A DNA stretch of 64,000 bases from positions 1-64,000 of the forward strand of contig CAIRLC010000018.1 of assembly GCA_903879335.1 (NCBI GenBank), in the 5' to 3' direction. Each line of letters begins with the position of its first letter. Within the stretch, counting starts at the first letter, position 1. The translations under genes and the position numbers were made by a program. The DNA comes from an uncultured Pseudomonadota bacterium. Lineage in GTDB: Bacteria; Pseudomonadota; Gammaproteobacteria; Steroidobacterales; Steroidobacteraceae. The notes below the pieces were generated by a model, which ran no database searches, was not told the origin of the DNA, and saw nothing but the letters and a program-made list of their open reading frames with translations. Shown piece by piece: positions 26,561 through 37,005 of this stretch.

Positions 26561-27310
26561 ATGCGCAAGATTCTGGTTGGTGTTAAGCGGGTCGTTGATT
26601 ACAACGTCCGAGTTCGGGTCAAGCCGGACGGTTCAGGTGTCGCCCTCGAAGGCGTCAAAATGAGCGTCAATCCCTTCGATGAGATCGCGCTGGAAGAAGC
26701 GCTGCGGATCAAAGAACGCGGCGAAGCGGCTGAAGTGGTTGCGGTCAGCATTGGCACGGATGAGGCCCAGCAGCAGCTGCGCACCGCATTGGCGATGGGC
26801 GCTGATCGCGCCATCCTCGTCAAGGTCACCGAAGCGGTCGATCCCTTGGTGGCTTCGCGGGTGCTCACCGAGATCGCCAAGAGAGAGAACGCGGATCTCG
26901 TCATCCTCGGCAAGCAGGCGATCGACGACGACGCGGCGCAGACCGCGCCGATGGTCGCCGCCCTCTGGGGCCGTCCGCAGGCGACTTTTGCCTCGAAGAT
27001 TGCGATCAATGGCGGCACCGCGATCGTCACGCGCGAAGTGGATGCCGGCCTTGAGACCATTGAAGTGGACTTGCCGGCGGTATTCAGCGCGGACCTGCGC
27101 TTGAACGAACCGCGCTACGTCAAGCTGCCCGACATCATGAAGGCGAAGAAGAAGCCGCTCGATGTCGTCGAGTTTGCGTCGCTCGGCGTCACCGCGGACG
27201 TGGGCCTCAAGACCGTATTTGTGGAACCGCCGAAGCCGCGTGCCAAGGGCATTGTGGTCAAAGACGTCGCCGAATTGGTTGACGCGCTCAAGAAGAAGGG
27301 GCTGGTCTAA
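26561..27310 (+). CDS. etfB: Electron transfer flavoprotein beta subunit
   Basis: The 249-residue subunit starts MRKILVGVKRVVDYNVRVRV and includes MSVNPFDEIALEEALRIKE, the AMP-binding ADLVILGKQAIDDDAAQTAPMVAALWGRPQ, and the LPAVFSADLRLNEPRYVKLPDIMKAKKKP loop that docks to partner dehydrogenases. The start has GGAG six bases upstream; a longer in-frame start adds seven residues. With EtfA it passes electrons from acyl-CoA dehydrogenases to ETF:ubiquinone oxidoreductase. Confidence 0.97.
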   Translation: MRKILVGVKRVVDYNVRVRVKPDGSGVALEGVKMSVNPFDEIALEEALRIKERGEAAEVVAVSIGTDEAQQQLRTALAMGADRAILVKVTEAVDPLVASRVLTEIAKRENADLVILGKQAIDDDAAQTAPMVAALWGRPQATFASKIAINGGTAIVTREVDAGLETIEVDLPAVFSADLRLNEPRYVKLPDIMKAKKKPLDVVEFASLGVTADVGLKTVFVEPPKPRAKGIVVKDVAELVDALKKKGLV

Positions 27311-28254
27311 TGAGCAAGATCCTGATCATTGCCGAACATGACGGCAGCGCACTGAACCAAGCGACGGCCCGAGCCGTCACCTGCGCCCGCCAGATCCCTG
27401 GCGCGCACGTCACCATCGCGGTGTTCGCCGCAGAGCCGGCTGCTGTGGCCTCGGCCGCGGCGGTCTTGGCGGGTGTGGACGCCGTCGTGACCGTGGCGTC
27501 GGCCGCGAACGGCCACGCGCTCGCCGCGACCTTGGCGCCGCAAGTGGTGGCACTGGCCGCCGGTTATACGCACGTGTTCGCGGCATCGACCTCGTTCGGC
27601 AAGGACCTCTTGCCGCGCGTCGCCGCGCTGCTTGGCGTGCCACAGATCTCGGATGCCATGGCGGTGGAAGGCGCTTACAAGTTCAAGCGTCCAACCTACG
27701 CGGGCAATGCAATCGTGACGCTCGAAGCGCCGGCGGATCGCATCCTGGTCGCCACCGTGCGCAGCGCCAGCTTCGAGCCTGCGGCCGGTGGCGGCAGCGC
27801 GTCGATCAGTGCGGCCGACGTCTCGGCTGAACTGCCCACGCACACGCGTTTTGTCAGCCTCTCCGCGGCCCCCAAGAGCGACCGCCCGGACCTCGCGTCG
27901 GCCGCCAAGGTCGTCTCGGGTGGCCGTGCACTCGCTTCGAAGGAAAACTTCGACATCGTCTACAGCCTCGCCAGCAAGATGGGCGCTGCAGTCGGTGCCT
28001 CACGTGCGGCGGTGGACGCGGGGTACGCGTCCAATGAACTGCAGGTCGGTCAGACTGGCAAGATCATTGCGCCGGAACTGTATGTCGCGGTCGGTATTTC
28101 GGGGGCGATCCAACATCTGACGGGCATCAAGGATGCCAAGACGATCGTCGCGATCAACAAAGATCCTGAAGCGCCGATTTTCGAAGTGGCTGATTTCGGT
28201 CTCGTCGCCGACCTGTTCGTCGCCGTGCCTGAGATTGAAAAAGCCCTCAGCTAA
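27310..28254 (+). CDS. etfA: Electron transfer flavoprotein alpha subunit
   Basis: The 314-residue subunit has a C-terminal FAD domain with [45 protein letters not shown] and [22 protein letters not shown], all typical. The N-terminal half folds like EtfB. The ATG overlaps the etfB stop (TAATG). The operon ends at a strong hairpin 41 bases after the stop. Confidence 0.97.
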
Positions 28255-28295: not shown

Positions 28296-28323
28296 AGGCC
28301 CGGCAAGGCAACTTGCCGGGCCT
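28296..28323 (+). terminator. Terminator hairpin after etfBA
   Basis: A 12-base perfect stem AGGCCCGGCAAG with its complement and loop GCAA, followed by TTGTCGTT. The stem is strong and the U-tract moderate. Confidence 0.75.
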
Positions 28324-28544
28324 TTGTCGTTCTCAGGGCTTACCCGATAACCAGTGTCGGTTTCGAAACGTGGCGGCAGGAGGCGAGTAGGTAGTCTCCA
28401 CGGCAACGTTCGCACTCGCGCAGGAAACGCCGCCGTAACCTCGCCTTCCCGTAATGCGCAACGGAACTCCGATATGGGCGACAAAAGGGCCAAAAGGTAC
28501 CTTGAATCTCGGCTGGAAGATTCAGCCCTACTGAGGGATGCCCT

Positions 28545-29906
28545 ATGAAAATCACGCTCATGCGAACGAAGTGGCTGACCGGCGCGCTGGCAACGCTCGC
28601 GCTCGCACTGCTCTCGACCTCGGCCCAGGCCGTGCCGAGTTTCGCCCGGCAAACCGGCATGGCCTGTGAGGCTTGCCACACGGTCTGGCCGGAACTCACC
28701 CATTTCGGGCGCGTCTTCAAGGCCAACGGCTACATCCTGGATAACCTCAAGCAAGTGCGCGGTGTCTCACAACGCAAGGATGAGTTGCTCTCACTGGCCA
28801 CCCTGCCCCCCTTATCGATGATGGTGCAGATCTCCGACACGCAACTGGCGAAGCCACTGCCGGATACGCAAAACGGTAGCGTGGCCTTCCCGCAGCAGAT
28901 CAGCTTGTTTTACGCCGGGAAAATCGCGCCCCATGGCGGCGCCTTTATCCAATTGACCTACGCGCACGACAGCGGCGGTATCCAGATCGATAACGCGGAT
29001 ATTCGCTTTGCCGACATCTTGACCACCGAGACGGGTCACAGCCTCGTGTACGGCGTGTCCTTGAACAACAATCCGACCGTGCAGGATCTCTTTAACTCAA
29101 CCCCGGCCTTTGGATTTCCCTACGCCGGCTCGAGTGCTGCTCCGGGCATTCCCTTCGGCGCGCAGATTGACGGCGCGCTCGGCCAAAATGTCGCCGGCCT
29201 GACCGGTTACGTCTACCTGAACGAGTCGCTCTACGCCGAGGCGGGCTTCTATCGCTCCGCGCAGCAGCGCTCACTGCCACTCGACAGCAGCGCCGCCGGT
29301 GTACTATCTGGACTCGCCCCCTACTGGCGCTTGGCCTATGAGCACAGCTGGGATCGGCACAACCTCTCGGCCGGTGTGTACGGTGCGACATTTAAGCTCT
29401 TCCCCGGTAACGGCAGCGCGCTCACCGGCCCCACCGACACGTACAAAGATGTCGCTGAGGACCTTCAATATCAGTTCACCGCCGACAATCACCTGTTCAG
29501 TCTGCAGGCCACGCGGATCAGTGAGAACGCGTCGCTGGATGCGACCTACCAGGACGGTGTCGGCAGCTCGAATCTGAAAAATAAGCTGACCACTACGCGA
29601 GCCTTTGCGACCTACTACTACAAGCGTCGCTTCGGCGGCACGGCGGGCGTCTTCCAGACCACCGGGACGGGCGATGCGATTCTGCACACGCCGGCCGGCT
29701 TAGAGCCTGATCCGACGGCCTCGCCCGACACCACCGGCTGGATTGCGGAGCTGAACTACTTGCCGTGGATGAACACCAAGTTCTCGCTGCAATACACTGC
29801 GTTCAGCAAATACAACGGTCGCACCAACGACATCCAATACGACGGCACGGGCCGCTCGGCGAGTGACAACAACTCGCTGTATTTGGTCGCTTGGTTTGCG
29901 TTCTAA
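28545..29906 (+). CDS. Cyc2-like fused mono-haem cytochrome and outer-membrane beta-barrel
   Basis: The 453-residue protein has a signal peptide (1-29, ending AQA) and then a single haem site, CEACH at 41-45, inside VPSFARQTGMACEACHTVW and a following FGRVFKANGY. No other cysteine pair is seen. Residues from about 80 to the end are alternating strands with aromatic girdles, ending in Phe as in outer-membrane barrels. This architecture, a very short cytochrome domain plus porin, is that of Cyc2, the outer-membrane iron oxidase of Fe(II)-oxidisers. The FARQTG..C..CH core is what I recall of that family. Iron oxidation itself is not shown; related proteins of unknown donor exist. A c4 cytochrome follows 18 bases later. 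Confidence 0.75.
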   Translation: MKITLMRTKWLTGALATLALALLSTSAQAVPSFARQTGMACEACHTVWPELTHFGRVFKANGYILDNLKQVRGVSQRKDELLSLATLPPLSMMVQISDTQLAKPLPDTQNGSVAFPQQISLFYAGKIAPHGGAFIQLTYAHDSGGIQIDNADIRFADILTTETGHSLVYGVSLNNNPTVQDLFNSTPAFGFPYAGSSAAPGIPFGAQIDGALGQNVAGLTGYVYLNESLYAEAGFYRSAQQRSLPLDSSAAGVLSGLAPYWRLAYEHSWDRHNLSAGVYGATFKLFPGNGSALTGPTDTYKDVAEDLQYQFTADNHLFSLQATRISENASLDATYQDGVGSSNLKNKLTTTRAFATYYYKRRFGGTAGVFQTTGTGDAILHTPAGLEPDPTASPDTTGWIAELNYLPWMNTKFSLQYTAFSKYNGRTNDIQYDGTGRSASDNNSLYLVAWFAF

Positions 29907-29924
29907 CGCCGTAAGGACACACTC

Positions 29925-30551
29925 ATGAAAACGATCATTCGTTCCTTATTGGCCTGCGCCTGCCTAAGCACTGCGCTCGCCGCCTACGGTGAGGACCCGG
30001 CACCCGAGGCCTTGGCGCTCGCCAAACGGGTGGCCATCACCACCTGCGGCACCTGCCATGGCGTCCAGGGGGTCAGCGCCCAACCGAAGTTCCCCAATCT
30101 CGCCGGCCAGTCGGAGAACTACCTGGCCGCGCAGTTGAAAGCCTTCCGCTCGCAGACGCGTGGCGATGCCGATGCATTGGCCTATATGTGGGGCATGGCG
30201 GCGCCCTTGGATGACGACACCATCCAGGCCCTCAGCGCGCTGTATGCGAGTAAACCCGGGGCGGCGGGTAGCCGCGTGACTGATCCGGCTTTGGTGGCGC
30301 GTGGTCAGTCGCTTTACCTCGAAGGCAAGCTCGATCAAGGCGTACCGGCGTGTGCCGCATGTCACGGCCCTGACGGGCACGGCATCGCCGACTTCCCTCG
30401 CCTCGCCGGTCAACACGCCCAGTACCTGTTAAAGCAGCTGGATTCCTTCCAGACCAACATGCGCAATGTCGCCGTCATGCACGGCGTCGCTTCAGGACTC
30501 AAAGGCAGTGATGCCGAGGCCGTGGCGGCGTACCTCGAGAGTTTGCCGTAA
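29925..30551 (+). CDS. Di-haem cytochrome c4
   Basis: The 208-residue periplasmic protein has a signal peptide (about 1-20) and two homologous c-type domains with CGTCH at 41-45 and CAACH at 143-147. Each is followed by the c4-type FPNLAGQ...YLAAQL or FPRLAGQHAQYLLKQL segment. Methionines in YMWGMA and AVMHGVASGL are likely axial ligands. c4 proteins carry electrons to terminal oxidases. Its place directly after the Cyc2-like barrel suggests it takes electrons from that protein across the periplasm. Confidence 0.93.
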   Translation: MKTIIRSLLACACLSTALAAYGEDPAPEALALAKRVAITTCGTCHGVQGVSAQPKFPNLAGQSENYLAAQLKAFRSQTRGDADALAYMWGMAAPLDDDTIQALSALYASKPGAAGSRVTDPALVARGQSLYLEGKLDQGVPACAACHGPDGHGIADFPRLAGQHAQYLLKQLDSFQTNMRNVAVMHGVASGLKGSDAEAVAAYLESLP

Positions 30552-30601
30552 CGCATCGCGCTCGGGACGCACGGTGACGGCGACCGGTGTGCGCACCCAA
30601 A

Positions 30602-30637
30602 AAAACGGGTTCGGATCAGTCGATCCGAACCCGTTTT
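30602..30637. terminator. Bidirectional terminator between cytochrome c4 and peroxiredoxin
   Basis: A 16-base perfect stem starting AAAACGGGTTCGG with loop AGTC, with a U-tract on both strands. It separates the convergent genes. Confidence 0.9.
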
Positions 30638-30652
30638 GCATCGTCGCGACGA

Positions 30653-31135
30653 TTAGAGATGCGCGAGGACGTTCTCAGCGGTGCTCGCCTTGAACTCGCC
30701 GCCGTTCTCGACGTGGAGTGCTGTAACCACGCCGTCTTTGGCCACGAGCGCAAAACGCTTGCCGCGCACGCCCATACCAAAACCGGTGGCATCCAGCTCG
30801 AGGCCGAGCGCGCGCACGAAGTCCGCGTTGCCATCGGCGAGGAAGCCGATCTCGGCAGCCGCGTTGCTGGCCTTACCCCAGGCATCCATCACGAACACGT
30901 CATTCACGGCCGTGCAGACAATCGCATCCACACCCTTCGCCTTGAGCGCATCCGCGTGGGTCACGAAACCTGGCAGGTGCTTGGCGTGGCAGGTGGGCGT
31001 GAAGGCACCCGGGACAGAGAACAGCACAACCGTCTTGCCCGTCGTCAGTTCGCTGACCGACACATTGGTTGGACCGTCCTTGGTCATCTGCTTGAACGTG
31101 GTTTCAGGCAATTTATCGCCGACTTGAATCGTCAT
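30653..31135 (-). CDS. Peroxiredoxin, Prx5 type
   Basis: The 160-residue thiol peroxidase has the peroxidatic Cys49 in VPGAFTPTCHAKHLPGF, the strongly conserved Prx5 motif. The GFGMGVRGKRFALVAKDGVV segment is also typical. There is no signal peptide and no glutaredoxin fusion, so it is cytoplasmic and needs an external reductant. It reduces hydrogen peroxide and alkyl hydroperoxides. Confidence 0.93.
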   Translation of the reverse strand: MTIQVGDKLPETTFKQMTKDGPTNVSVSELTTGKTVVLFSVPGAFTPTCHAKHLPGFVTHADALKAKGVDAIVCTAVNDVFVMDAWGKASNAAAEIGFLADGNADFVRALGLELDATGFGMGVRGKRFALVAKDGVVTALHVENGGEFKASTAENVLAHL

Positions 31136-31227: not shown

Positions 31228-32013
31228 TCATCCCCGAGCCGGTCGCGCGACCCATGCGGCGATGGCCGTCGCCATCCGCCGCGGCACACAGCGGACTAAA
31301 AAAACAGCGAGTGTATTCACTAAGCCCGGGACCACGAGACGTCGTCCCAAGCGGGCACCCCGATACCCAGCGCGGGCGACGAACGCGGATTCGGCGACCG
31401 GCAACAGACCACCCACGACGAGCGTCGAGCGACGCGATCCTGCCCGTTCGTGGAAACTGCTTTGAGTAGGGCCTGGGCACAACGCGGTCACGGTGACACC
31501 GGTGCCATCCAATTCATGCGACAAGGCCTCCGAGTAATGCAGCACATAGGCCTTCGAGGCGTAATAGGCCGCCATCCATGGTCCTGGCTGGAAAGCCGCG
31601 GTCGAGGCCATGTTCAGGATGCGGCCCGAGCCGCGGGCGACCATCGCCGCCTGGAACGCTTGCGTCAGACGCGTCAGGGCCAAGACATTGACTTTGACGA
31701 TCGTCGCTTCGGCGTCAGGCGGCAGGTCTCGGGATAAGCCCCAAGCGCCAAGGCCGGCGTTGTTGACGAGCAGATCAGGGATGACGCCAAGCCCGCGGGT
31801 CCAGTCGATCACCGCCTGGACGCCTTCAGGCTTGGCCAGGTCGGCCGCCAGGACCTCTACCTGCAATCCTGGACGCAAGAGTTCGGCGGCGAGCGCCTGC
31901 AGGGCGCCCTCGTCCCGCCCCGTTAATAGGAGCCCAGAAACGTCATCGGCCGCGAGTCTTGCGACGTCGCGGCCGATGCCGTGTGAGGCACCCGTAATGA
32001 GCGCCCAAGCCAA
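31228..32013 (-). CDS. Short-chain dehydrogenase/reductase family protein
   Basis: The 261-residue SDR has cofactor loop TGASHGIG (residues about 7-14), VNNAGLG, and a catalytic Ser in MASTAAF with YYASK. A hydrophobic C-terminal part (VPGLVNTLAVFLVRCVP) suggests membrane contact, as in DltE/YqjQ-like SDRs. The start is TTG, four bases after the preceding TPR gene's stop, so it is coupled to that gene. The substrate is unknown. Confidence 0.85.
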   Translation of the reverse strand: MAWALITGASHGIGRDVARLAADDVSGLLLTGRDEGALQALAAELLRPGLQVEVLAADLAKPEGVQAVIDWTRGLGVIPDLLVNNAGLGAWGLSRDLPPDAEATIVKVNVLALTRLTQAFQAAMVARGSGRILNMASTAAFQPGPWMAAYYASKAYVLHYSEALSHELDGTGVTVTALCPGPTQSSFHERAGSRRSTLVVGGLLPVAESAFVARAGYRGARLGRRLVVPGLVNTLAVFLVRCVPRRMATAIAAWVARPARG

Positions 32014-32017
32014 ACGA

Positions 32018-33262
32018 TCAGCCTTGCGGCGGATCCAAGTTCGGCAAGGCGATGAGCCACGCGTGTGCTGCGTGTTCCATGCGCTTGTCGGACTGCGCCT
32101 TGGTGAAGGCTTCGATGGCCTTGTCCTTCTTACCGGCATGCAGGTACGCGATGCCTAAGGTCATGTAGGCGTCATCCAAACGCTTCACCTTTGCGACGCG
32201 TTCGTCGGTCAGGCCGCGTTCGATGGCTTCGATCGCCTTGTCGTACTCACCGAAACCAATGTAGGCGAGACCCACTTTCACATCAGCCTGGCCGTTCTTA
32301 CCCGCGCGCGCTTCCTTGTCGAGCGTCGGCAACAACTTCTTGTCCTCAGCGGTCAAGGTCTTGGCTTGCGACAAGAGTTTGCTGTTGCGGTCAGTCGCCG
32401 CAATGAACTTCACGACATCGCGCTTCTGACCCTGTTCGATCACCTTGAGCGCTTCTGCCGGCGAACCGGCATCGATCGCGCCATCGGTGTAGCTGACATA
32501 CTCGCTCTCACGCGTCATTTCGTTGCGATCGAACAAGAGTCGGTACATGTTCAGCATGGCCAGCGGCTCAGCATCGGCTTCGTAGATGCCGATCAGGTCC
32601 ACCAAGTACTCACGCTTCGGGAACTTGACGACGAGGGTCTCCATGACCGCCTGACGCTTCGCCTTGTTCTCGGTCCGGTAGTAGGCCACGTTCAACTGCT
32701 TGAGCGTGTCTTCCTTCGGCTCCGGCGTCGCCGCCGCGATCTTCTCAAGCCAAGGAATCGCCGCGCCGTAGTCTTGCTGAATCAATTCGATCTGCGAGCC
32801 CAGCGTGTAGGCATCGACGCTATTCGAGGCATCAGCCCACTTGCCCACCCACATCAAAGCCTTGTCATAGACTTTGTTCTGCGCATTGATCTGCGCTAGC
32901 GCCTTGTAGTCTCGCACGCGCTCGTCATCGGCCATATTCGGCGCCGCTTCGAGCAACTGCTCCGTGAACTCGGCATACAGCGTGAAGTCCTGCTTCTTCG
33001 CTGCCGCGTAGGTCATCATGCGCAGCGAGGTTTCACGGTCATAGGGCGTCTTCGCGACGGCCAAGCCCGCCTTCGCGAGCGTGAGACCCCCGTCGAAGTC
33101 ACCCTTGCCCATCGCATCCTGCGCCGGCTTCAACTGCTTGGCGACAGCTTCAGTCAGAGATTCCTTCTTCTCTTTCTCCGCCGCGCCCGCCGAGGTGGCG
33201 ACCAACACTGCCAGAAAACCCGCCATGAGCGGGGCCTTCACCCGTGTAAACCAATTGTTCAT
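32018..33262 (-). CDS. Periplasmic TPR protein, TonB-associated type (copy 2)
   Basis: The 414-residue protein has a signal peptide (about 1-28) and repeated helical pairs, such as DAMGKGDFDGGLTLAKAGLA and the C-terminal VKVGLAYIGFGEYDKAIEAI followed by YMTLGIAYLHAGKKDKAIEAF. It is a paralogue of the upstream gene: both share the order DAxGxDxxDVxxGLxYxxxGxxDKAxEAxxRGL near the end. It probably scaffolds envelope proteins; a partner is not known. It lies between its paralogue and an SDR, downstream of tonB-exbBDD. Confidence 0.82.
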   Translation of the reverse strand: MNNWFTRVKAPLMAGFLAVLVATSAGAAEKEKKESLTEAVAKQLKPAQDAMGKGDFDGGLTLAKAGLAVAKTPYDRETSLRMMTYAAAKKQDFTLYAEFTEQLLEAAPNMADDERVRDYKALAQINAQNKVYDKALMWVGKWADASNSVDAYTLGSQIELIQQDYGAAIPWLEKIAAATPEPKEDTLKQLNVAYYRTENKAKRQAVMETLVVKFPKREYLVDLIGIYEADAEPLAMLNMYRLLFDRNEMTRESEYVSYTDGAIDAGSPAEALKVIEQGQKRDVVKFIAATDRNSKLLSQAKTLTAEDKKLLPTLDKEARAGKNGQADVKVGLAYIGFGEYDKAIEAIERGLTDERVAKVKRLDDAYMTLGIAYLHAGKKDKAIEAFTKAQSDKRMEHAAHAWLIALPNLDPPQG

Positions 33263-33289
33263 GTCACCCCTCGTAGGTGTAGCGCTGAC

Positions 33290-34510
33290 TTAGTTGCCAG
33301 CCCAGATCTTCGCTGCCGCCGCCATGCGGGGGTCAGCCTTCGCTGCCGCAAATGCCTTGTCGGCTTCGGCCTTCTTGTGGAGCTTGGTCAGCACAATGCC
33401 GTACACCAAGTTCGCTTCGTCCGGACGACGCACCTTGGCCACGTGATCAGCCGACAGGCCGCGTGCAAAGGCTTCAGCCGCCTTGTCGTTCTGACCCATC
33501 GAGAAGTAACGCAAGCCGAGCTTCACGTCGGTCTCGCCGTTCTTACCGGCCTTCGACTCGGCATCCAACTGCGCGACATTCTTGGCGTCATCGGCCGCAC
33601 GATCCTTAGCCTGCTTCAGCAAGGCCTCCGCCTTGTCTTTGCCCTTGGCGCCTACCACCTTCTTCGAGAAAGCCTTCTCCAGCACATGCTGTGCTTCGGC
33701 CGTCGTGCCCTCCGACAGGGCCAAGTCCGCCATCTTCGTGTAATCGCCTTCGTCGGCCAAGAAGTCGCGTTCGTAGCCGTAACGGTACACACCGAGCAAG
33801 GCCAGATCATCCGGCTTCTTCGGCAACAGGTCCGCGAGCACCGCCTGGTACCACTCCTTCTTCGGGAACCGGCGCAGCAGTTCTTCGGCGGTCGACACGG
33901 CCTTCGCGCTATCCTTATCCTGCGTGTAGCAGGTATAACGCAACTTCAGCACCGACTCGCTGGCTTCCTTACCCGCCGGAGCCGCCTTCTCAACGGATTC
34001 CAACGCGCCCTTGCAGTCGTGTGCGCCGTACTGCAACTGAGCCAGCAGTTCCCAATCGGCCGTGCTACCCGCGCCAGCAGTCAGGAAGGACTTCATTTCA
34101 GAAACCGCTTTGTCGTAATGGTTCGTGGCCGCGTAGATCGGCGCCAGCGCCTTGTGGAATTGCACCTTCTCAGCGGCCGAGACACCTTCGGTGGTCAGCA
34201 GCTGCTCCAACGCTTCCTGCTGATCTTGAACCTTGCCCGAGGCACCAGCGACCACCAACAACAGTTTGAGCGCGGCGGTCTTCTCAAAACCCGACTTGGC
34301 GACGCCATGCGCTTCTTTAGCGGCAGCGAGGGCCTTCGGCAGGTCATGGCCCTTATACGCCGTGACGCCCGCGTTGTACTTCTCAGAGAACTCCGCAGAC
34401 GTCTGCGCCTGGGCGTAAGCGCCCTGCGAGGCCAGAGTCGCGACGCCGAGGACACCGGCGACCAGGAGTCCGCGCGTGGCGCGCGAAAGGACAGTAGCGA
34501 GCTTCGTCAT
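33290..34510 (-). CDS. Periplasmic TPR protein, TonB-associated type (copy 1)
   Basis: The 406-residue protein has a signal peptide (about 1-33) and TPR-like helices (FSEKYNAGVTAYKGHDLPKA near the start; VKLGLRYFSMGQNDKAAEAF near 350). It has two cysteines (HDCKGAL and RYTCYTQ), absent from copy 2, that could form a disulphide. The start has GAGG six bases upstream. It begins after the terminator that closes the tonB operon, so the TPR pair has its own promoter in the 83-base gap. The paralogy argues for a tandem duplication. Confidence 0.82.
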   Translation of the reverse strand: MTKLATVLSRATRGLLVAGVLGVATLASQGAYAQAQTSAEFSEKYNAGVTAYKGHDLPKALAAAKEAHGVAKSGFEKTAALKLLLVVAGASGKVQDQQEALEQLLTTEGVSAAEKVQFHKALAPIYAATNHYDKAVSEMKSFLTAGAGSTADWELLAQLQYGAHDCKGALESVEKAAPAGKEASESVLKLRYTCYTQDKDSAKAVSTAEELLRRFPKKEWYQAVLADLLPKKPDDLALLGVYRYGYERDFLADEGDYTKMADLALSEGTTAEAQHVLEKAFSKKVVGAKGKDKAEALLKQAKDRAADDAKNVAQLDAESKAGKNGETDVKLGLRYFSMGQNDKAAEAFARGLSADHVAKVRRPDEANLVYGIVLTKLHKKAEADKAFAAAKADPRMAAAAKIWAGN

Positions 34511-34593
34511 CGTATACCTCAGTAAATCTCAATAAATTCAGTTGATTATCGACGTGCACAACGCCGGACGTTCCCCATCTCCGCGGTGGCACC

Positions 34594-34628
34594 TAAAAAA
34601 CGAATGGGCCGACAGAGCCGGCCCATTC
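34594..34628 (-). terminator. Terminator of the tonB-exbB-exbD-exbD operon
   Basis: On the minus strand a ten-base stem GAATGGGCCG with its complement and a seven-base loop is followed by GTTTTTTAGG. It lies 43 bases after the last exbD. Confidence 0.88.
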
Positions 34629-34670
34629 TTCTACTCTCAACGACTAACCGCAAGGCCCCTCGGCCTACGG

Positions 34671-35090
34671 TTAGAGGTTTCCGCTCGCGTCAGCGACGAA
34701 ACCAATCTTCTTCAAGCCGCCACGCTGCACGGCGAACAGAACGTTCGCAGCGAAGTCGTAACGAGCCCGACGGTCGATCTGCAAGAGGACTTCCGGCTGT
34801 GGCTCGAGAGCCGCCGAGTCCTTGATTCTCGCGATCATCTCCATCGGCGGCAGGTTTTCGCCATTCCACGAAACCGCGCCGTTGTACGCCACCGCGATGT
34901 TGATCGGCTTGGCCGGATTCTCCGGCGGCGGATCATTCGACGCGCGCGGCAAGTCAATCTTGACCGAGTGCGTCATCACAGGGAGCGTGATGATGAAGAT
35001 GATCAGGAGCACGAGCATGATGTCGACCAACGGCACGACGTTAATGGTCGTGTTGTATTCGCCGCTGTCTTTAGGTCCGGAAATTGCCAT
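34671..35090 (-). CDS. exbD: ExbD-type proton-channel subunit (second copy)
   Basis: The 139-residue protein has a short cytoplasmic end, one membrane helix VPLVDIMLVLLIIFIITLP with the proton-carrying Asp, and a periplasmic domain (PEVLLQIDRRARYDFAANVLFAVQRGGLKKIGFV). The start ATG has GGAG nine bases upstream. Two different ExbD subunits in one operon are known from Xanthomonas-type systems, where one can be specialised. Confidence 0.93.
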   Translation of the reverse strand: MAISGPKDSGEYNTTINVVPLVDIMLVLLIIFIITLPVMTHSVKIDLPRASNDPPPENPAKPINIAVAYNGAVSWNGENLPPMEMIARIKDSAALEPQPEVLLQIDRRARYDFAANVLFAVQRGGLKKIGFVADASGNL

Positions 35091-35107
35091 CTGATGCTGC
35101 TCCAAAC

Positions 35108-35527
35108 TTAACCGTGCGGAGGAGGTTCAGCGATGAACGCGACCTTGAGCAGATAATTCCGCTGCAGGGTCGTGAGCACGTCCGCGACGTAAGCGTAGGT
35201 CACGCGCTTGTCGGCGCGGATCTGCACTTCAGGCTGCGGAGACTGCGTCGCCTCGCTCTGTGCAAGCTTCGCCAGGTCTTCCAGCGAAATCTGACCGTCA
35301 TTCCAGTAGACCGTGCCGGCGAAGTCGACTGAGAGACTGATGTTCTCAGGCTTCGTCTCCGTCGGCACATTAGCGTTCGTCGGAAGGACGACTTTGATCG
35401 CCTTCGTCGCCACCGGGATGGTGATGATGAAGATGATAAGGAGCACGAGCATGATGTCGACGAGCGGCACAACGTTAATTTCGTTGTTCAACTCGCCTTC
35501 TTTAATCGGGCCACTACCGCCTGCCAT
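35108..35527 (-). CDS. exbD: ExbD-type proton-channel subunit (first copy)
   Basis: The 139-residue protein has the membrane helix NVVPLVDIMLVLLIIFIITIP, nearly identical to its neighbour, and a periplasmic domain ending DVLTTLQRNYLLKVAFIAEP. With ExbB it uses the proton motive force to energise TonB. It is followed 18 bases later by the second exbD. Confidence 0.95.
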   Translation of the reverse strand: MAGGSGPIKEGELNNEINVVPLVDIMLVLLIIFIITIPVATKAIKVVLPTNANVPTETKPENISLSVDFAGTVYWNDGQISLEDLAKLAQSEATQSPQPEVQIRADKRVTYAYVADVLTTLQRNYLLKVAFIAEPPPHG

Positions 35528-35575
35528 GTACCTGCTCCTCGTCTATCGTCTAAACGCTGTTCTACTGGGTGACTC

Positions 35576-36310
35576 TTACTTCTTAGCCGATGCTGCAGCA
35601 GCGGCCTTCGCAACGGCCACGCGGCCGCCCGAGAGAATCGCCTGGTGCAGGTCGTGCGAGAAGTGGACAACTGCGTCGCTGATCGCCTTGTTACGGCGGG
35701 TCAGCCAGTTGAAACCGAGCACGGCAGGGATAGCAACGCCGAGACCGATAGCGGTCATCCAGAGCGCCTCGCCGACAGGACCGGCAACCTTCTCAATCGA
35801 CGCGTTGCCCGACATGGCGATCGAGCGCATGGCGTTGAGAATACCGAGAACGGTACCGAGCAGACCGACGAACGGAGCGGTCGCGCCGACCGATGCGAGC
35901 ACGGCCATGCCGTCGTTCAAGTCACCGTTGATCTGATCAACGCGACGCTGCATGTGGGTCGAAACCCAGTCGTGCAGGTCGATCGTTTCGGTCAGACGGC
36001 CCTTGTTCTTCTCGTGATGGTTCACGGAGTCCATCGCGTCAACGGCGATCGTGCGGAACACGTTCTCATCGCCGCCCTTCAGGCGCGCGATGCCGTCAGC
36101 GATCGAGGAAGCGCCCCAGAAGTCCTTATCAACCGTCGACGCGTACTTGTTCAGCGCGTTCTGGTCGAGAAGCTTCACAATGAGGACGTACCACGAGTAA
36201 AGGGACATGACGACGAGAATCGTCAGAAGGACCTTGCTAACCGGACCGGAGTCCCAAAGATCCTGAATACCAAAGTTACGAGACTCGGGAGCAACTGCTG
36301 CGTCGGCCAT
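35576..36310 (-). CDS. exbB: ExbB/MotA/TolQ-type proton-channel protein
   Basis: This 244-residue protein has an N-terminal helix (about 24-46), a cytoplasmic loop, and two C-terminal helices around ATAPFVGLLGTVLGILNAM (about 140-160) and GEALWMTAIGLGVAIPAVLGFNW, the MotA/TolQ/ExbB signature. The ATG follows GAGG by nine bases. It lies between tonB and two exbD genes, 71 bases after tonB. Confidence 0.95.
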   Translation of the reverse strand: MADAAVAPESRNFGIQDLWDSGPVSKVLLTILVVMSLYSWYVLIVKLLDQNALNKYASTVDKDFWGASSIADGIARLKGGDENVFRTIAVDAMDSVNHHEKNKGRLTETIDLHDWVSTHMQRRVDQINGDLNDGMAVLASVGATAPFVGLLGTVLGILNAMRSIAMSGNASIEKVAGPVGEALWMTAIGLGVAIPAVLGFNWLTRRNKAISDAVVHFSHDLHQAILSGGRVAVAKAAAAASAKK

Positions 36311-36381
36311 GATCAAAGACCTCTGATGGGTTCAGTAAAAAAAGAACGATGTAGTTACAAGATAACGTTCGGAACAGCGAC

Positions 36382-37005
36382 TCAGTTCGTGAGTCGCCAT
36401 GTCCACTTCATGCGCTGCCAAGAGGCAACCGCTTCATTGCCGACCTTTTGCGGCTCAAAGCGACCCTGGGCGGTTACGCACTTGGCGGCCGCATCGTCGA
36501 GGCGCTGGATGCCACTCGATGTTTCCACCTTGGTCTCCGTCACTTTGCCGTTTGGCGCAATGTAGACGAGAAGAACAACCGAACCCTCTTCGCTGAGACG
36601 CTTGGAGGCGGACGGATAGTACGATGCACACGCCTCACCGAGATTCGACCCCTTGGCGACCTTCGCCTGGGTGATCGGTGGCGGTTCAACCTTCGCCGGC
36701 GGGGGTACAGGCTTCGCCTCAACCTTCGGGGCCACAATGGCCTTCGGAGGTGGCGGACCCTCAACCACAGGCAGGTCGACGAGCGGTGTTTGGACCGGAG
36801 GTGGCTTGAAATCAGGCGGCGGCGGCGGCGGAGTTTTTTTCATCTCCTCCTCAACCTGCTTGACCAAGCGCATATCAAGCGACTCAGTCGCTTGCTGCAC
36901 GTACTTGAATGCCGTGGCAATGATGATGCCGACAGCGAGTGCGACGTGCAGTCCGATGACTACAAATCCAACGATGGCTTTACGAGAATACTTGCCGCTA
37001 GACAT
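36382..37005 (-). CDS. tonB: TonB energy-transducing protein
   Basis: The 207-residue protein has a membrane helix (about 11-31), then a proline-rich spacer (TPPPPPPDFKPPP and on to about 115) and the C-terminal domain with YPSASKRLSEEGSVVLLVYI and GKVTETKVETSSG, which contacts TonB boxes of outer-membrane receptors. The C-terminal domain carries two cysteines (EACASYYP and AKCVTA). It heads the four-gene operon. Confidence 0.94.
   Translation of the reverse strand: MSSGKYSRKAIVGFVVIGLHVALAVGIIIATAFKYVQQATESLDMRLVKQVEEEMKKTPPPPPPDFKPPPVQTPLVDLPVVEGPPPPKAIVAPKVEAKPVPPPAKVEPPPITQAKVAKGSNLGEACASYYPSASKRLSEEGSVVLLVYIAPNGKVTETKVETSSGIQRLDDAAAKCVTAQGRFEPQKVGNEAVASWQRMKWTWRLTN

Follow-up and report, generated by a model that had tools for sequence, protein, structure and literature searches.

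A cyc2 relative with an adjoining cytochrome c4 gene at a variably filled site in a Steroidobacteraceae genome

Introduction

Could a bacterium that otherwise looks heterotrophic draw electrons from a donor outside the cell? This question is raised by two adjoining genes of an uncultured member of the Steroidobacteraceae (assembly GCA_903879335.1), which lie on a stretch of 64,000 nucleotides of contig CAIRLC010000018.1, the whole of which is called the window here. A preliminary description, made from the letters alone, had likened the first gene to that of Cyc2, the outer-membrane iron oxidase, and had coupled it to a di-haem cytochrome c4, leaving the donor as iron or something else. A section of PMC8406198 states that the Cyc2 of M. 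ferrooxydans PV-1 has been shown by measurement to oxidise Fe(II) and that A. ferrooxidans Cyc2 is reported to do so, and treats iron oxidation by Cyc2 outside the known iron oxidisers as an open question.

Results

The first gene, which we call cyc2 of type A (28545-29906, forward strand, stop codon included), encodes 453 amino acids that are predicted to form a mono-haem cytochrome fused to a porin. Residues 1-29 (MKITLMRTKW...TSAQA; 28545-28631, forward strand) were read by eye as a signal peptide, with a hydrophobic core in the hydropathy plot. The sole CXXCH of the protein is the haem site C41-H45 (CEACH, residues 41-45; 28665-28679, forward strand) inside AVPSFARQTGMACEACHTVWPEL, after which come FGRVFKANGY and about 370 residues with an aromatic C-terminus (...YLVAWFAF). 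The hallmarks of Cyc2, as given in the same section of PMC8406198, are AXPXFAR[Q/K][T/Y] before CXXCH, PXL after it and a length of at least 365 residues, with a fused porin part of 16 predicted strands. Compared with this consensus, the motif AVPSFARQT-GMA-CEACH-TVW-PEL (28629-28697, forward strand) fits in both halves, AVPSFARQT before the haem site and CEACH-TVW-PEL as a single CXXCH followed by PXL, and the length is 453 residues against the family minimum of 365.

The motif in its strict form, including haem site and PXL, recurs in 110 of 167 full-length relatives; at least one CXXCH was the entry condition of this set, so that only the finding of not more than one counts as a result. Rows lacking CXXCH were removed before the trees were built and before the 167 were counted; in one set these were two pieces of broken genes. 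Among relatives chosen by similarity alone, with two broken copies excluded, all 38 of 38 have exactly one CXXCH. As to the predicted barrel, hydrophobic alternation reached 1.495 against 1.197 +/- 0.103 in column shuffles (largest of 500: 1.564), an indirect sign in its favour, and the number of strand-like peaks was no better than in shuffles (18 versus 16.8). M93 is the only conserved candidate for a sixth haem ligand, present in 142 of the 167 sequences; it was not kept as the ligand, being missing in 25 of them. Searched alone, the protein had no match at E <= 1 in Pfam or NCBIfam and two chance matches only in the PDB (at 0.1 and 0.3), and a profile search of the PDB gave one unrelated match at 0.88. 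Upstream of cyc2, a search by eye found no common motif.

Matches at E <= 1e-5 occur in 37 of 118 related genomes, so the ORF is not a product of chance, and the best match from another genome is 74% identical over 439 residues. In wider searches, the class gave matches in 63 of 369 genomes and the phylum in 88 of 398, the window's own genome being included in all three counts. In that genome (3.1 Mb, 46 contigs, 96.8% complete) cyc2 is present as a single copy. Profile alignment to Cyc2 encoded in rus operons extends over the full length (446 columns, E 4e-101). Against Cyc2 that we call Zetaproteobacteria-like (family f220), a reading from gene content for a set without the PV-1 sequence, a 51-row profile aligned over 382 columns (E 3e-29) and an 11-row profile over 239 columns only (E 5e-24), and in whole-genome profile searches these members were matched near the N-terminus only.

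The placement of the protein was examined in a quick tree of 101 chosen rows, 7 of them from rus operons, and in a careful tree under a mixture model with 47 rows chosen from the 101, 4 of them from rus operons; both were rooted, by our choice, on the group bearing the KY motif. One clade unites the window protein, its c4-linked and azurin-linked relatives and all rus-operon Cyc2 of both trees (support 99 in the quick and 100/99 in the careful tree). The Zetaproteobacteria-like group (100; 100/99) and the group that includes the KY-motif proteins (96; 98/95) are set apart, and the tree program flagged long branches joining inside the latter. Within the shared clade, the line of the window protein and the rus line are separate. 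Taken as a surrogate placement, the trees put the protein inside the Cyc2 family and not in an unrelated cytochrome or porin family, and with the full-length profile match they uphold the Cyc2 link proposed at the outset; the protein is almost certainly a member of Cyc2. Our name for the clade, cluster 2 type, follows from the section of PMC8406198, where cluster 2 is defined by the Cyc2 of A. ferrooxidans, and from the rus operons that mark the clade; it is a label that rests on the rus-operon copies and not on the chromosomal protein of A. ferrooxidans; by sequence, the window protein would be a Cyc2 of this type.

The second gene (29925-30551, forward strand) starts 18 bases after the cyc2 stop, as had been described, and encodes a di-haem cytochrome c4, a Cyc1-like periplasmic carrier of 208 amino acids with two CXXCH (PF00034 at 9.1e-20). 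It has two c-haem domains of the PF00034 type, and its periplasmic location is taken from a signal peptide read by eye. The genome has two other c4-like proteins, 35-36% identical to the one encoded here, which appears to be a dedicated copy.

The coupling of the two genes, claimed from this one locus, proved to be conserved: in a tree that omitted rows of 250 amino acids or less, c4 is the next gene in 24 of 24 rows of the subclade to which the window protein belongs, and 22 of these rows come from its own family. A more distant homologue in the family (L050) has no c4 next to it. A scan of named genomes with the pattern A[VM]PSF[AS]RQ[TL], covering the best 80 of 493 relatives, placed a c4 start within 600 bases in 59 of 81 Cyc2 copies, with a median gap of 15.5 bases when the window's pair is included; among the 22 misses are some copies truncated at a contig end and some with c4 further off. 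Among these best 80 of 493, the pairs include records labelled Gamma-, Beta- and Alphaproteobacteria, most of the Acidobacteria records have c4 within 9 kb downstream, and none is the A. ferrooxidans chromosome. Distances of Cyc2 and c4 are correlated (Spearman 0.83 for 70 pairs; largest of 999 shuffles 0.26), which we do not count as proof of interaction because shared host ancestry remains in the figure. In two loci (L049 and L053, genomes G042 and G066) cyc2 is interrupted by a stop or frame change while the adjoining c4 ORF is open; that of L049 shows one CXXCH only. For a specific porin whose haem has a structural role alone, one can cite the absence of measured activity for the window protein; against it stand the exactly one CXXCH kept throughout the relatives chosen by similarity and the redox partner encoded beside cyc2 throughout the subclade, and we find this reading hardly credible.

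Type B, a second Cyc2 that falls in the same large clade, occurs in 10 of the 15 genomes of the genus. Its haem site is C-x-Q-CH in 9 of 11 sequences, with two extra residues before PxL, and the R of FARQT is often missing from its motif. A blue copper gene lies next to it in 10 of 13 loci from the genus and family: L061:6793-8621 (genome G007), L051, L054, L055, L058, L059, L060, L062, L063 and L367 have an azurin or azurin-like gene, and L064, L065 and L368 do not (L367 and L368 were assigned to type by blast, not by tree). Five of the ten azurin-like partners had themselves built the search profile; Pfam (PF00127) served to check three of the blue copper genes, and one scores as an azurin above the curated cut-off (TIGR02695, 185 bits versus 105.1). 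Within the genus, eight of the ten type B genomes have the copper gene, the other two being G003 and G010, whose copy is cut by a contig end. Type A is present in 13 of the 15 genomes, being absent from G007 and G013 and split into two pieces on two contigs in G006; both types occur in nine genomes, and neither in one fragmented genome. The parts of the literature on Cyc2, azurin and iron oxidation that were covered contain no cyc2-azurin pair, which is weak evidence of novelty.

Both carriers bear on the direction of electron flow. Since direction is not readable from sequence, a cytochrome-porin might also be drawn as an exporter that reduces an external acceptor. However, c4 and azurin are kinds of carrier that usually have high potentials, and the tested family members, as described in the section of PMC8406198, take electrons from Fe(II); export is therefore very improbable in our judgement.

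The cyc2-c4 pair lies between genes for the beta and alpha subunits of an electron transfer flavoprotein (ETF; 26561-28254, forward strand, PF01012 and PF00766) and a peroxiredoxin of the Redoxin family (30653-31135, reverse strand, PF08534). A hairpin terminator follows the ETF genes (28297-28322, forward strand) and is matched in genome G010 (ETF alpha 86% identical), where the gap is empty, with about 100 bases and one terminator. The sequence absent from that empty gap defines the cassette (28332-30644, edges approximate), which is closed by a hairpin with T-runs on both strands (30602-30637, by eye) that weakly matches the empty site (20 bases, E 0.23). Judged by ETF alpha, G007 is the nearest of the other 14 genomes (91%), and its gap contains type B and azurin. 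In G005, G006 and G009, type B and azurin lie beyond the peroxiredoxin gene as seen from the gap, and the contig that carries them in G006 lacks the ETF genes. Short alignments (69-75% identity) place the window's cassette to the right of the terminator and that of G007 to the left. Because the cassettes are on opposite sides, the simplest reading would be that they arrived separately, or at least that their junctions differ, although the hairpins are short and could mislead. Shared 12-mers at the cassette edges were not found, and the G+C content of the cassette is 61.7% against 61.8% in its surroundings. The second Cyc2 type, mostly azurin-linked, and the variable filling of the ETF-peroxiredoxin gap are new here.

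Beyond the peroxiredoxin, the window continues with an SDR, two TPR proteins and an ExbD-ExbD-ExbB-TonB series (31231-37005). This block is common to several genomes of the genus, and one TPR protein is weakly MamA-like, far below the cut-off. The C-terminal part of a Tn3-type transposase (PF01526) lies near the window edge (154-816).

The flanking peroxiredoxin might suggest a protective role, in which external oxidation of Fe(II) limits Fenton damage and the electrons pass to oxygen or a peroxidase. A Pfam-checked di-haem peroxidase of the CCP/MauG type lies divergently beside cyc2-c4 in L033:6620-8002, and a relative of it likewise in L036:7176-8282. However, such a neighbour is present in few loci, and the peroxiredoxin gene stays in place where the cassette is absent (L356), so that we regard it as a neighbour and dropped it as a part of the system. 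A primarily protective role seems quite improbable.

The genome encodes both aa3 and cbb3 oxidases, whose subunits I score above curated cut-offs; cbb3 had been named as the oxidase to look for. No rusticyanin match (TIGR03095) was found in the genome (G000, assembly 96.8% complete) at E 1e-6, nor any match to the RuBisCO large subunit. The heterotrophic look first noted is confirmed by the tannase, pullulanase and nucleoside carrier families, together with the lack of a RuBisCO match.

Discussion

From the presence of aa3 and cbb3 and the lack of RuBisCO and rusticyanin matches, the likely route leads from a donor through Cyc2 and c4 to an oxidase in a heterotroph. We propose that this Cyc2 and its dedicated Cyc1-like c4 probably carry electrons from Fe2+ to aa3 or cbb3. 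Dissolved Fe2+ would enter the predicted outer-membrane barrel and give one electron to the single c-haem, which may act as a plug where the barrel opens to the periplasm; electrons from Cyc2 would be collected by the di-haem c4 encoded beside it and passed to the aa3 oxidase, the cbb3 oxidase or both. Because RuBisCO was not found, a heterotroph would benefit through additional proton-motive force. Several observations count against this explanation: there is no match to cup, coxB, coxA, coxC or rus in the window and no rusticyanin match in the genome, the subclade of the window protein forms a line apart from that of the rus operons, and M93, the sole conserved sixth-ligand candidate, is absent from the four rus-operon Cyc2 that have c4 (listed as L302, L303, L304 and L308). 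In addition, the section of PMC8406198 cautions that function is uncertain far from the characterised Cyc2.

The conduit could be the same with a natural donor other than iron, such as humic matter in reduced form, a different reduced metal or another cell. The carrier gene beside such porins varies (c4, azurin, and in one plasmid a HiPIP gene 0.8 kb upstream), several relatives are heterotrophs, and, as part of PMC5371394 reports, Ca. Tenderia electrophaga expresses a cyc2 homologue differently when the electrode potential is changed. Those Cyc2 that the section of PMC8406198 names as tested nevertheless oxidise iron, and many of the named relatives (best 80 of 493) come from MAG series that read by name as mine drainage or peat. 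A donor other than iron thus appears rather unlikely, and iron would be the probable main donor of the route proposed above.

Relatives of cyc2 also occur on plasmids of cultured bacteria, in 9 of 72,556 records, five of which were inspected. On the plasmid of Caballeronia sp. SBC1 (L375:2915-5932), a c-type cytochrome gene lies downstream of cyc2 and the HiPIP gene, which might represent a third kind of partner, about 0.8 kb upstream; on that of Methylocystis sp. MJC1 (L376:3818-7588), three consecutive genes for c-type cytochromes come after a cyc2-like gene. The Ideonella dechloratans plasmid carries cyc2 and a c-type cytochrome, on a plasmid of an A. ferrooxidans strain cyc2 is followed at about 0.5 kb by a smaller c-type cytochrome, and that of Paraburkholderia phytofirmans OLGA172 has a cytochrome upstream and none after. 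The cyc2 relative on the plasmid of A. ferrooxidans YQ-N3 (L374:4890-6257) scored equally with the copy on the Acidiphilium cryptum JF-5 plasmid.

We tentatively suggest, as a possibility about which we are still doubtful, that Cyc2 and its own carrier (c4, azurin, or HiPIP plus c-type cytochrome) may form exchangeable and self-contained cassettes for electron import, which move among heterotrophs independently of any autotrophic iron pathway, types A and B being functional alternatives in this genus and the slot having been filled separately in sister species. If the cassettes oxidise iron, heterotrophic iron oxidation would be far wider than assumed. A two-gene cassette that is present, absent or replaced by an azurin-linked one at a single gap in sister species offers a clean comparison on Cyc2 function, and deletion tests look possible because cultured bacteria (Ideonella dechloratans, Caballeronia sp. 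SBC1) carry pairs of cyc2 and a c-type cytochrome on their plasmids.

Among known systems, the window protein shares motif, length class and single haem with the rus-operon Cyc2 of Acidithiobacillus, Acidiferrobacter and Acidihalobacter (cluster 2 of McAllister/Keffer). Of the seven rus operons that we found, four have the order cyc2-c4-cup-coxB-coxA-coxC..rus (L321, where c4 appears as three overlapping pieces, L324, L330 and L331) and likewise have di-haem c4 (cyc1) as the gene after cyc2; three have cyc2-cup-coxB-coxA-coxC..rus, without c4 (L142, L337 and L338), the rusticyanin of L142 (G378:C3:236058-236486) scoring 137 bits, below the cut-off of 146.7. These orders are close to the one that part of PMC10654088 gives for the three genera, where the A. 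ferrooxidans operon starts with cyc2-c4. In contrast, the window protein belongs to a line of its own, with 35% identity in the profile alignment, and cyc2-c4 stands without cup, coxBACD and rus beside it; cup, coxB, coxA, coxC and rus had no match within the window. A renewed search for Cyc2 in six genomes, on account of rusticyanin-like matches, found none in four (G322, G267, G472 and G229), although 15 of 18 genomes of the family of G322 had one. In L191:2134-3483 (isolate BP6.bin38), cyc2 has coxB and coxA downstream and no c4 was found, possibly a rus-like operon. With the Cyc2 of Zetaproteobacteria and Gallionellaceae (cluster 1, for example M. ferrooxydans PV-1), the window protein shares the motif and the profile match of 382 columns, but it differs in spacing after CXXCH and lies outside their well-separated group (100/99). 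The c4 has a clear sequence relation to cytochrome c4 and Cyc1 of solved structure (best relatives 1etp, 6q2u and 1h1o), all with two c-haem domains.

The closest published parallel is within the family itself. Steroidobacteraceae MAG 28 from the Cabin Branch mine drainage has the same type A cyc2-c4 pair, its Cyc2 being 51% identical to the window protein (L047, which is one and the same contig as L218), and the excerpt of PMC8357290 describes it as a MAG that may have a Cyc2-like cytochrome and states that this homologue 'may' serve Fe(II) oxidation; a table of PMC8357290 gives carbon fixation for MAG 28, unlike the window's genome with its lack of a RuBisCO match. For Steroidobacteraceae, a table of PMC12285243 gives 0-2 genes for oxidative EET. 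The literature therefore already contains a Cyc2 homologue from a MAG of this family, and the fresh part of the present find is the exchangeable carrier together with the shared slot.
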